This document shows, piece by piece, positions 581 to 13,025 of a stretch of DNA of 64,000 nucleotides. The translations under genes were made by a program, and so were the position numbers. Source of the DNA: an uncultured Pseudomonadota bacterium (GTDB lineage Bacteria > Pseudomonadota > Gammaproteobacteria > Methylococcales > Methylomonadaceae); the NCBI GenBank assembly GCA_903928965.1, contig CAIYSZ010000087.1, forward strand, positions 1-64,000, given 5' to 3'. Below the pieces are notes generated by a model. That model was not told the DNA's origin. It ran no database searches and saw only the letters and a list, made by a program, of their open reading frames with translations. Position 1 is the first letter of the stretch; each line of letters begins with the position of its first letter.

Positions 581-865
581 ATGACTAAACGGCAACTTTA
601 TCTGGCGGCGTATGATATTTCTTGCAATCGGCGGTTGCGCAAGGCGCTGCGCGTGTTGCGCGGTTATGCCTCGGGCGGGCAAAAGTCGGTGTTTGAGTGT
701 TTTTTGACCGATGCCGAGAAAACACAATTACTGGAACAAATGGCCCAAATCATAGACCCGGAGGAAGATCGTTTTATTGTGCTGCGTTTGACATCCGTTA
801 AACATATTAGGGTGTTGGGTAAGGCTGTTCCGCCGCAGGATGGTTCGTTTTATTACGTGGGGTAA
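581..865 (+). CDS. cas2: CRISPR adaptation protein Cas2 (first copy)
   Basis: Cas2 is the small ferredoxin-fold subunit that bridges Cas1 dimers during spacer integration. This 94-residue protein starts with the family strand QLYLAAYDIS, whose Asp (residue 12) is the conserved metal-site position, and continues with a QKSVFECFL strand and a long amphipathic helix. The track begins at an upstream TTG; I chose the ATG at 581 because it places the family strand at the N-terminus. No clear Shine-Dalgarno sequence precedes it. The gene is immediately followed by cas1, with its stop adjoining the cas1 start region, and it is clearly divergent from the second cas2 at the end of the operon. Confidence 0.9.
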   Translation: MTKRQLYLAAYDISCNRRLRKALRVLRGYASGGQKSVFECFLTDAEKTQLLEQMAQIIDPEEDRFIVLRLTSVKHIRVLGKAVPPQDGSFYYVG

Positions 866-868
866 TTG

Positions 869-1825
869 ATGGGCAGTTTGTATTTGGATAGAAAAAATTT
901 AGGCATTAAGTTAGACGGTCAGGCGCTGGCGCTGTATGAGTCTGGCGAGCGTAAGGGTTCCGTGCCGTTGCATTTGATTGAAAGGGTGGTGTTGCGCGGT
1001 AATGTGCAACTTGAAAGCAGGGTGTTGGGGGCGTTGAGCGAGCGGAATATCGGTCTGCTGGTTTTGTCCGGGCGTAATACCGAGGCGACGGCGATGTTGG
1101 CCGGCCGGGCGCATGGTGAAAGCGCTAGGCGGATGGGTCAATATTGCGTCAGCCTAGACGATGATTTGCGCACGCCTTTGGCGCGCTGGCTAGTGTTGGT
1201 GAAGGTGCGTTCGCAGCTTGGCTTGTTAAGGCGGGCGTTGGCGGGACGGCCTGATTTACGGCTGCCATTGACTGGGGCTATTCAGTCCTTGTCCGGTGTT
1301 TTGGAGCAGTTGCGGGAGGATAAGCTTGTGATTAGCCTTGAAAGTCTGCGCGGTTATGAGGGCGCCGCCGCCGCGGCTTATTTTGGCGGGTTTACTAAGT
1401 TATTTTCACCGGCGTTGAATTTTAACGGTCGCCGCAAACGCCCGCCGCCGGACCCGGTGAATGCTTGTCTGTCGCTGGGTTATACCTTGTTGCATTATGA
1501 TGCGGTAAGGGCGTGCCATATTGTCGGGCTGGACAGCATGTTGGGTTTTTATCATGATCTTAGTTTTGGTCGAGAATCCTTGGCTTGCGATTTGATGGAG
1601 CCCTTACGGCCTGTGTTGGACGGCTGGGTGTGGCATTTGTTTCGGGAGCGTGAGTTGCGCCCGGAGCATTTTAGTGACGATAACGGACGCTGTTTGCTGA
1701 ATAAAACCGGCAGGCAGCGGTTTTACGCATTTTATGAGTCGCACGCGCCTTCCGCGCGCCGGTTGCTGCGGCGTTATGGGCATGCCTTGAGCCAGCGGTA
1801 TCAGTTGGTTTACGAGGCTCGTTAA
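869..1825 (+). CDS. cas1: CRISPR-associated endonuclease Cas1
   Basis: Cas1 is the spacer integrase. The 318-residue protein has the N-terminal beta domain, with the IERVVLRGNVQLESRVL block at about residues 38-55, and a helical C-terminal domain carrying the three expected catalytic positions: Glu164 in RGYEGAAAAAYF, His229 in GFYHDLSFGRESLACDL and Asp241 in CDLMEP. It therefore looks catalytically competent. The ATG at 869 follows the cas2 stop by three bases; the track start at 866 is a TTG. The gene ends in TAATG, sharing one base with the start of a second cas1-like gene, so translation is probably coupled. The subtype cannot be assigned because no effector genes are present. Confidence 0.93.
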   Translation: MGSLYLDRKNLGIKLDGQALALYESGERKGSVPLHLIERVVLRGNVQLESRVLGALSERNIGLLVLSGRNTEATAMLAGRAHGESARRMGQYCVSLDDDLRTPLARWLVLVKVRSQLGLLRRALAGRPDLRLPLTGAIQSLSGVLEQLREDKLVISLESLRGYEGAAAAAYFGGFTKLFSPALNFNGRRKRPPPDPVNACLSLGYTLLHYDAVRACHIVGLDSMLGFYHDLSFGRESLACDLMEPLRPVLDGWVWHLFRERELRPEHFSDDNGRCLLNKTGRQRFYAFYESHAPSARRLLRRYGHALSQRYQLVYEAR

Positions 1826-2568
1826 TGCGTCCGTTGTATATTGATGGTTCAATCGGTTGCCGGGTGGTGTGGGATGAACCGGCTCTGCGGGTTTCGGTCG
1901 CGGATAAGGCTGATCAGTTGTTTCCGGTGTCCAGGGTTTCCAGGGTAGTTTGCAAGGGGGTGGTGGAGTGGTCCATGTCTGCGCTTTTGGCGTGCGCCGA
2001 TGCAGGTATTTCGGTTTTGTTTTTAGAGAAAAACGGCGAACTCCGCGCCAGGTGGTTGGGCAAGGCCGGTGAGCGGCAATTTTTGACGCAACGTTTTGCT
2101 GATTTGCTGGCCCGTTCAGACGGTCCTGCTTTGTATGAGAATTGGACGCTGTCGATGGAAAAGCTAGCAGCGCGTAGTTTCGCGCGGCGTATCGGTTTGC
2201 CTGATTGGCGTGAAATTCCGGTGGCGTCGTTGCGCCGGCAAGTCTTTGTCAGTTTGCAGAGTGAGGGGCGGCAGCGGGCGAATATGTTGGAAAACATTTT
2301 GCACGCAGAATTGCTGGTTTGGTTGCCCGAAGCGGGTTTTGCCGGCGATGATGAGGGCTTGGCGGCTAGCGGCCCAGATTTGGCTGTATTTTTGAGTCGG
2401 TTGTTGCTGTGGGATTTTTATCCGGCTTTGTTGGATGACCAATTTAACGCCGATATGACGCCCATGCAGGCCATGGGGCAAGTGTTTCATCAGCAGGCTG
2501 ACCGCTGTTATTTGCTGTTCCGAGGAACTATCAATAAATTGCAGCAGTTTTTGCTATCGGTAAGCTGA
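1825..2568 (+). CDS. Cas1-like protein lacking a recognisable active site
   Basis: This 247-residue protein begins with a Cas1-type N-terminal beta domain. LYIDGSIGCRVVWDE, then VSRVVCKGVVEWSMSALLACADAGISVLFLEKNGELRARW, aligns by eye with the same block of the upstream Cas1. The C-terminal part is helical and about 70 residues shorter. I cannot find the catalytic Glu context (GxEG) or the H...GRxSLxxDLMEP segment present in the neighbour. It is thus probably a non-catalytic Cas1 paralogue, perhaps a structural subunit of a mixed Cas1 complex. It overlaps the genes on both sides by one base (TAATG before it, TGATG after it), which argues for selection as part of the operon rather than decay. 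Confidence 0.75.
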   Translation: MRPLYIDGSIGCRVVWDEPALRVSVADKADQLFPVSRVSRVVCKGVVEWSMSALLACADAGISVLFLEKNGELRARWLGKAGERQFLTQRFADLLARSDGPALYENWTLSMEKLAARSFARRIGLPDWREIPVASLRRQVFVSLQSEGRQRANMLENILHAELLVWLPEAGFAGDDEGLAASGPDLAVFLSRLLLWDFYPALLDDQFNADMTPMQAMGQVFHQQADRCYLLFRGTINKLQQFLLSVS

Positions 2569-2882
2569 TGGCGGACAACAAACCGGGATTATATTTGATC
2601 GCCTATGATATCGCCCATCCGCGGCGTTTGGGCAAGGTGCATCGCATTTTAAAGAAACAAGGCTTGCCGGTGCAGTATTCGGTTTTTACCGTGGTCATGA
2701 AACGGCCGCGCTTGCTGCGTTTGCTGGAGAGCATTGAACGGCAGATTGAAACAGCCGAGGACGATGTGCGTTGTTATAGCTTGCCGGTTAAGACTGACAT
2801 GGCGGTTTTGGGGAGGCAGTATTTTCCGGATGATGTGATGTTGTTTACCGGCGGGGTGAACAGGATTTTGGGGGGGCGTTGA
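2568..2882 (+). CDS. cas2: CRISPR adaptation protein Cas2 (second, divergent copy)
   Basis: The 104-residue protein has the Cas2 pattern GLYLIAYDIAHPRRLGKVHRILKK, with the conserved Asp at residue 14, followed by the hallmark QYSVFTVVM strand, a helix containing ERQIETAEDDVRCYSLP, and a terminal strand. It resembles canonical Cas2 more closely than the first copy, which has QKSVFECF. Its ATG shares one base with the stop of the cas1-like gene. The four genes read as two unlike Cas1 and two unlike Cas2 subunits made from one message. No leader or repeats follow within the next 1.2 kb. Confidence 0.9.
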   Translation: MADNKPGLYLIAYDIAHPRRLGKVHRILKKQGLPVQYSVFTVVMKRPRLLRLLESIERQIETAEDDVRCYSLPVKTDMAVLGRQYFPDDVMLFTGGVNRILGGR

Positions 2883-8971: not shown

Positions 8972-10462
8972 ATGAATGTTTTCGCCTCGCGCTGGCTCAT
9001 CCTGGCCTTGGCCTTGACTATGGGCGCGGTGCAGAATGTGTCTTTCGCGCCCTATGGCTGGTCCTGGCTGGCGCTGCCGCCGTTGATGTTTTTATACGCC
9101 GTCTGGACGCGCGCCGCCCGCCCGCGGCTGGCGAGCTATGTTTTCGGCTTAGGCGTTTTCGGTTGCGGCGTTTGGTGGGTATATATCAGCATCCACGATT
9201 ACGGCGGCGGGGATGCGGCCGGGTCGATAGCGCTGACGGTTTTTTTCGTGATGTTTTGGGCTTTGTTTCCGTGGCTGGCGGCGGCGGCGGCGGCTTGGAT
9301 CGCTCGCCGCACTGGCGGCTTGGCGCGGGTGTGCGCGGCGGCGGCGGCGTGGGAGGCGGTGGAGTATTTTCGCGGCGATTTTTTGTTGAACGGTTTTCCG
9401 TGGTTGCAAATCGGCTATAGCCAGATCGACACGCCGTTGGCCGGTTACGCGCCGGTGCTAGGGGTTTATGGCATCGGGTTTTTATTGGCCGCGTCGGCTT
9501 TTTTATTGGTTGAACTCGGCTGGCGCCGTTTGCCGTGGCCTTACGTTTGGTTGCTGGCCTTAGTCTGGGGCGGCGGCGCGGGATTGCGGCAAATCAGCTG
9601 GAGTCAGGCGGCGGGGCCGCCATTCGAGGCGGTGCTGTTGCAAGGCAATATCAGCCAGGATTTAAAATGGCGGTCCGAGGAAAAGTTAAAAACTTTGAAA
9701 TTGTACCGGGATTTAACCGACCGGCATTGGGATGCGCGGCTGATTATTTGGCCGGAAACGGCGATACCGGCTTTTTTTTCGCAAGTAAAGGATTTTTATT
9801 TGAAGCCGTTGGCGGCGGATGCGGAGCGGCACGGCGTGGACCTGGTGGTCAGCCTGCCGTTCGAGGGCGAGGACAAGGATTATTATAATAGCGTGCTGAC
9901 CTTGGGCGCGGAGATTGCGCTTTACCACAAACATCATTTATTGCCGTTCGGTGAGTATTTGCCCTTGCAGCCGCTGTCGGGGTGGGTGTTGGGTTGGCTG
10001 AATATTCCGTTGGGCGAGTTCAGCGCCGGCGACAAGCGGCAACCGCTGTTGCAGGCGGCCGGTTATCCGTTTGTGACCACGATTTGCTATGAAGACGCCT
10101 TCGGCGCGGAAGTGGCCGTGCAAAGCGCGGAGGCGGCGTTTTTGGTCAACGTCACCAACGACGCCTGGTTCGGCGAGTCGGCGCAGCCGTTTCAACATTT
10201 GCAAATGGCGCAAATGCGCGCCTTGGAGACCGGGCGTTATCTATTACGCGCCACGAATACGGCGGTGACGGCGGTGGTAGGTCCCGACGGGCGGGTGCGG
10301 GAGCAAGCGCCGCCGTTTCAAACGGCGGCGCTGACCGCCTGGGTGACGCCCATGAGCGGCGTCACGCCTTACGCGCGGTTCGGCGATGCGCCGGCTTTCG
10401 CCGGCATGGCCGTTTTATGCGGAATTTTGCTCTGGCGGCGGCGGATAACGTCTAAAATCTAA
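8972..10462 (+). CDS. lnt: Apolipoprotein N-acyltransferase
   Basis: Lnt adds the third acyl chain to bacterial lipoproteins at the periplasmic face of the inner membrane. The protein of about 496 residues has an N-terminal block of hydrophobic helices, with SFAPYGWSWLALPPL typical of Lnt, followed by a nitrilase domain. The catalytic triad is Glu262 (IWPETAIP), Lys320 (LYHKHHLLPFGEYLP) and Cys372 (TTICYEDAFG). The track starts at an upstream TTG; the ATG at 8972 gives the normal Lnt N-terminus. It lies 26 bases after rnm on the same strand and overlaps the end of the convergent GH57 gene by 48 bases. Confidence 0.93.
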   Translation: MNVFASRWLILALALTMGAVQNVSFAPYGWSWLALPPLMFLYAVWTRAARPRLASYVFGLGVFGCGVWWVYISIHDYGGGDAAGSIALTVFFVMFWALFPWLAAAAAAWIARRTGGLARVCAAAAAWEAVEYFRGDFLLNGFPWLQIGYSQIDTPLAGYAPVLGVYGIGFLLAASAFLLVELGWRRLPWPYVWLLALVWGGGAGLRQISWSQAAGPPFEAVLLQGNISQDLKWRSEEKLKTLKLYRDLTDRHWDARLIIWPETAIPAFFSQVKDFYLKPLAADAERHGVDLVVSLPFEGEDKDYYNSVLTLGAEIALYHKHHLLPFGEYLPLQPLSGWVLGWLNIPLGEFSAGDKRQPLLQAAGYPFVTTICYEDAFGAEVAVQSAEAAFLVNVTNDAWFGESAQPFQHLQMAQMRALETGRYLLRATNTAVTAVVGPDGRVREQAPPFQTAALTAWVTPMSGVTPYARFGDAPAFAGMAVLCGILLWRRRITSKI

Positions 10463-12902: not shown

Positions 12903-12930
12903 TATCGGTCGCGGTAAACCTGGTTAATTT

Positions 12931-13025
12931 GCGCGGGGGCGCATGTCTAGTAATGTTGCGCGGGGGCGCATGTCGATTAATTCCGCGCGGGGGCGCATGA
13001 CTATCAATCCGCGCGGCGGCGCAGG
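12931..13025. repeat. Four GC-rich 15-mers at 26-27 bp spacing
   Basis: GCGCGGGGGCGCATG occurs exactly at 12931, 12958 and 12985, with a degenerate copy (GCGCGGCGGCGCAGG) at 13011. Spacers are 11-12 bases and AT-rich, and differ from each other. The array lies between the divergent DUF4912 gene and glgX, within 30-125 bases of the DUF4912 start. On the minus strand it encodes repeated HAPPR within a spurious ORF. It could be a multi-site operator for the glycogen genes or a simple tandem expansion. Confidence 0.7.

Follow-up and report, generated by a model that had tools for sequence, protein, structure and literature searches.

We analysed a window of 64,000 nucleotides, by which we mean the whole stretch C87:1-64000 of a contig of 67,674 bp, from a genome of 3.25 Mb in 116 contigs whose closest relatives, as judged by the adaptation module, are Methylomonas and other Methylococcaceae. 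The first 2.9 kb of the window hold four almost abutting genes on the forward strand, in the order cas2a-cas1-cas1'-cas2b. The first, cas2a (581..865, +), encodes a Cas2 of 94 aa (Pfam CRISPR_Cas2, 1.8e-15), and is followed by the active copy of cas1 (869..1825, +), whose 318-aa product carries E164, H229 and D241 (Pfam Cas_Cas1, 5.7e-72; AlphaFold2 pLDDT 92.5). This Cas1 is a normal enzyme with the same fold as canonical Cas1, and phmmer matches it to a type I-C Cas1 (PDB 8d3l) at 7.1e-39. The third gene, cas1' (1825..2568, +), is an intact ORF with an ATG start (247 aa; AlphaFold2 pLDDT 90.4), and the fourth, cas2b (2568..2882, +), encodes a second, different Cas2 of 104 aa (Pfam CRISPR_Cas2, 1.1e-14). 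The cas1' gene shares both of its ends with its neighbours, the cas1 stop lying at 1825 and the cas2b start at 2568, as a sequence-only reading of this DNA had pointed out. Two other features of the window are recorded here, namely, a 91-aa ORF on the reverse strand (104-376) that matches DUF3368 (Pfam, 1.4e-7) and lies between cas2a and the side on which the array is presumed to lie, and a 27-nt tandem repeat in three copies (12920-13000; GCGCGGGGGCGCATG core) upstream of a glycogen-debranching-like ORF.

Linkage to type III effectors and a CRISPR array

A Cas10 palm profile identified a single type III effector locus in the genome of the window, on contig C80, with genes for Cas6, a CARF protein, Cas10/Csm1, Csm2, Csm3, Csm4, Csm5, a Csm6-like CARF-HEPN protein, a CARF-adenosine deaminase and a Card1-like nuclease. 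The effector genes are followed, at the end of C80, by one repeat (..GACCTTATTAAGAAGGGATTAAGAC) and a partial spacer. A search of the 64-kb window for a CRISPR repeat found none, which fits an assembly break at the array; most likely the assembly broke there, between C80 and C87, and we place the array beyond the contig start (1..580). In the relative G026, an effector set of matching layout is followed by a CRISPR array and then by cas2a-cas1-cas1'-cas2b. The terminal repeat of C80 and the layout in G026 together indicate that the module in the window supplies the adaptation half of a type III-A system, linked to both Cas10-type effectors and a CRISPR array.

The same linkage recurs in other genomes. 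Matches to the Cas10 palm were found in 19 of the 20 genomes searched, the weakest being near the cut-off, and 35 of the 47 longer loci with Cas1' have III-A proteins or their CARF or Cas6 companions in the stretch retrieved; a sample of the remaining longer loci yielded the III-B proteins Cmr3, Cmr4, Cmr6 and Cas10b. The arrays adjoining the module have type III-like repeats, mostly of 36-37 nt, with GGGATTAAGAC or a similar sequence at their end; their spacers measure about 34 nt, and no effect of Cas1' on spacer length was seen (34.0 nt with Cas1' vs 34.4 nt without it). Genome G000 has a further Cas1 match of 26 bits on contig C48 (L025, L026), and a separate CRISPR array with 12 copies of a repeat (fragment GAAACACCCCCACGGG) unlike that of the module.

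Homology of Cas1' to Cas1 and loss of the active site

The sequence-only reading had taken Cas1' for a Cas1 paralogue that keeps the N-terminal domain, has a shortened C-terminal domain and lacks counterparts of the catalytic Glu, His and Asp. Its first part is borne out by three comparisons that relate Cas1' to Cas1 over both domains. The Pfam Cas_Cas1 model covers only residues 11-88 (E-value 1.4e-7, above the curated cut-off); however, profile-profile comparison (hhalign) of 58 Cas1' homologues with 47 sequences of the neighbouring Cas1 aligns the two families over their full length (probability 99.5, E-value 2.2e-22), and the best 50 Foldseek matches of the Cas1' model are all Cas1 or casposase chains. 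The N-terminal beta domain (residues 1-84; 1825..2076, +) is the conserved part, and its strands and helix largely match one by one between the two AlphaFold2 models. The arrangement of the two domains in Cas1' is unsure, since the model has a pTM of only 0.66 and the Foldseek TM-scores are about 0.3-0.47.

The C-terminal domain is indeed shortened. In the AlphaFold2 model of Cas1, helices 128-148 and 157-178 (the latter bearing E164) and a loop precede helix 196-218, whereas the Cas1' model has a single 11-residue helix (133-143) ahead of the equivalent helix 146-169, the Glu helix being absent. About 47 Cas1 residues, comprising the E164 helix and the R/PP loop, are thus missing at residues 124-145 of Cas1' (2194..2259, +), with gaps at E164, R188 and P192. 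Every one of 96 sequences of the neighbouring Cas1 family has E164, H229 and D241, whereas E164 and H229 are gapped in all 58 Cas1' rows of the merged alignment, and R188 in 57 of them; at least 55 of the 58 homologues have lost both E164 and the R/PP loop, and all 58 have lost E164. The claim that the catalytic residues have no counterparts therefore stands for Glu and His and needs amending for Asp, as the D241 column does exist in the merged alignment and holds Asp in 47 of the 58 homologues and Phe189 (codon 2389..2391, +) in the window copy. A structure-based comparison found no intact E-H-D site in Cas1'. By homology, then, Cas1' is a member of the Cas1 family and, judging from the aligned and modelled catalytic positions, not an active Cas1; most likely it is a bona fide, catalytically dead paralogue. 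A GxxH motif is retained, by eye, in 8 of the 58 homologues, from Nitrospirota and relatives, with no Glu helix, and the motif LDPHLGVIHRRHNFGLALDI of Cas1' in Nitrospirota and related loci resembles GLDPxxGFYHxxxxGRESLACDL of Cas1. It looks as if the active site was lost stepwise, the Glu segment perhaps going first.

Distribution, co-divergence and selection

We found a match to Cas1' in 22 of 101 genomes, mostly near relatives, and the complete set cas2a-cas1-cas1'-cas2b in the neighbourhoods of 20 relatives, with cas2b immediately 3' of cas1'. A scan of GTDB genomes queried with the alignment of the neighbouring Cas1 returned 80 loci spanning Pseudomonadota, Nitrospirota, Acidobacteriota, Planctomycetota and other phyla. 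Cas1' follows cas1 in 63 of these 80 loci (in L138 it was recognised by position and by eye), a proportion that describes relatives of the window's Cas1 and not Cas1 at large, because the scan used a Cas1 alignment. The cas2a gene is present in all 20 of the relatives' neighbourhoods and in all 80 of the named loci, and two distinct Cas2 families lie around Cas1 in 79 of the 80, locus L105 stopping before cas2b; their conserved motifs differ, being GGQKSVxE in Cas2a and QYSVF in Cas2b. Both cas2 genes are also retained in the 17 loci without Cas1' (L111, L127, L128, L133-L135, L139, L140, L143-L145, L148, L154, L155, L159, L165 and L166), where two different cas2 flank cas1, so a Cas2a:Cas2b heterodimer, if it forms, may be more widespread than Cas1'. 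To explain the presence of Cas1' on the Cas1 tree, at least 5 scattered changes are required, compared with 15.6 after shuffling; no more than 2 of them are forced by well-supported branches. Given these changes and the 17 loci that lack it, Cas1' is not indispensable.

Several loci depart from the compact arrangement. About 1 kb of extra DNA separates cas1 from cas1' in L095 (3830-4787), and about 2.4 kb separates cas1' from cas2b in L131 (4609-6981). Contig C260 of genome G029 (L022) carries, near the contig end, a broken or truncated copy in which the C-terminal third of Cas1' is all that is present and contains a stop. An apparent Cas1'-Cas2b fusion in L169 (8936-9967) was first taken as evidence of contact between the two proteins and then discarded as a likely frameshift: a one-base indel near 9610-9625 explains it best, as the other frame leads on to the usual C-terminal end of Cas1', with its stop at the cas2b ATG. 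A search for carriage of the module by plasmids or phages gave no match.

In a tree with 34 sampled Cas1' sequences, all of them fall on one side with respect to Cas1 with a branch support of 100, a split to which long branches and shared deletions may contribute. Cas1' co-diverges with Cas1, their distance correlation (r=0.894) being the highest among the six gene pairs of the module. The sequence-only reading had also suggested from the overlapping ends that cas1' is maintained, and the substitution rates agree: the gene is under purifying selection, and this has not relaxed to neutrality. Among nine Methylococcaceae-type genomes the median dN/dS is 0.155 for cas1', 0.09 for cas1, 0.092 for cas2a and 0.141 for cas2b, and within Cas1' it is about 0.10 for the N-terminal domain vs 0.19 for the rest, all of these values being rough because dS is near saturation. 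Evolution is faster in the C-terminal half, which has a conserved Trp107 of its own.

A possible non-catalytic protomer of the integrase

The family has been noticed before, as the PADLOC profile PDLC01185 ('Cas1, diverged variant, second in the loci') matches 54 of the 58 Cas1' homologues at E <= 1e-3 (best 3.6e-121). The window copy matches it partially, over residues 16-110 only (6.3e-9), and is the second cas1 of its locus, as the profile's name has it; PDLC01185 is a label only. A type III-A locus with 'two copies of cas1/cas2' has been reported in Methylobacter sp. KS41, and likewise in Acidithiobacillus ferrivorans YL15, and KS41 is the strain of our locus L096, which carries cas2a-cas1-cas1'-cas2b; the available part of that report counts genes and does not note the missing active site of the second Cas1 (PMC6119699). 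A literature search found no account of a dead Cas1 subunit or of the loss of its active site, and none of the four-gene module or of a function, which is weak evidence of absence since subscription journals and most preprints were outside its reach. CasMuC with MuA (PMC10910872) offers another instance of an inactive paralogue encoded next to a working integrase-type enzyme; there the enzyme family is unrelated and the role is different.

In the canonical integrase of E. coli, half of the Cas1 protomers are non-catalytic and one gene product serves in both roles: within each dimer one Cas1 is catalytic, and its partner, Cas1b, makes the contact with Cas2 and assembles the complex (PMC10011333). 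The same division between catalytic and non-catalytic protomers is seen in an RT-Cas1 complex (PMC8102632). The module described here differs from the canonical integrase in having a separate dead Cas1 paralogue and two cas2 genes. The sequence-only reading had suggested that Cas1' might be a structural or regulatory subunit positioning the spacer or the leader. The loss of the active site, the retained N-terminal domain, the inheritance together with Cas1 and the position next to a second Cas2 are in keeping with a dedicated Cas1b. The reading we favour, with about even confidence, is that Cas1' serves as the dedicated non-catalytic protomer, forming with Cas1 a mixed dimer that lies beside a pair of Cas2a and Cas2b. 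On this view a gene of its own, cas1', would have taken over the role of the non-catalytic protomer. The Cas1' protein would use the N-terminal domain that it has kept to pair with Cas1, and would bind the Cas2a:Cas2b pair, probably at Cas2b; both transesterifications would fall to Cas1 alone. Against this reading count the 17 loci without Cas1', the spacer length that is alike with and without it, and the unsure arrangement of its two domains. More tentatively, and somewhat against our expectation, Cas1, the dead Cas1', Cas2a and Cas2b might form a heteromeric, asymmetric integrase in which the pairing of paralogues, rather than the PAM or host factors, fixes which prespacer end joins the leader.

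Other arrangements of the same parts have to be weighed. Cas2a could sit with a Cas1 homodimer and Cas2b with a Cas1:Cas1' or Cas1'-only dimer, so that the two prespacer ends would meet different partners and polarity would be built in with no need of a PAM. Such a one-sided integrase would make use of the two distinct Cas2 families around Cas1, with their differing motifs, and of the position of cas1' next to cas2b, and it would suit the observation that the type I-F integrase is C2-symmetric and yet must integrate directionally (PMC12259127); we nevertheless consider it unlikely, as both cas2 genes persist without cas1' and the two asymmetries are thus separable. It is a little less probable still that Cas1' acts outside the integrase core, binding prespacers, leader DNA or a type III effector protein and recruiting the active Cas1-Cas2. 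The fast-evolving C-terminal half with its own Trp107 and the co-occurrence of the family with both III-A and III-B effectors would suit such an accessory factor, but the portion of Cas1' that is conserved is the N-terminal domain of Cas1, and the gene is embedded among core adaptation genes and not among effector genes. That Cas1' retains some other metal-dependent nuclease activity centred on the Asp kept at the D241 position in most homologues, and accompanied by GxxH in the Nitrospirota group, is very improbable, for Glu is lacking at its catalytic position in every member, and in the window copy the Asp is replaced by Phe. Finally, a decaying duplicate without function, for which the lost catalytic residues and the loci lacking Cas1' might speak, is scarcely credible, being already contradicted by the low dN/dS (about 0.15), an ORF that is open in nearly all genomes, a single old origin and a gene order conserved over several phyla.

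To our knowledge, one Cas1 gene fills two structural roles in all of the solved Cas1-Cas2 integrases. If Cas1' is a dedicated non-catalytic protomer, and the two roles are thus split naturally, catalytic and non-catalytic protomers, as well as the polarity of integration, would become testable by gene deletion. This bears on spacer acquisition by type III systems, in which adaptation is little understood. If true, the module would be a clear example, too, of a pseudoenzyme partner arising within an integrase, intermediates being still visible in the homologues that keep His and Asp and have no Glu.
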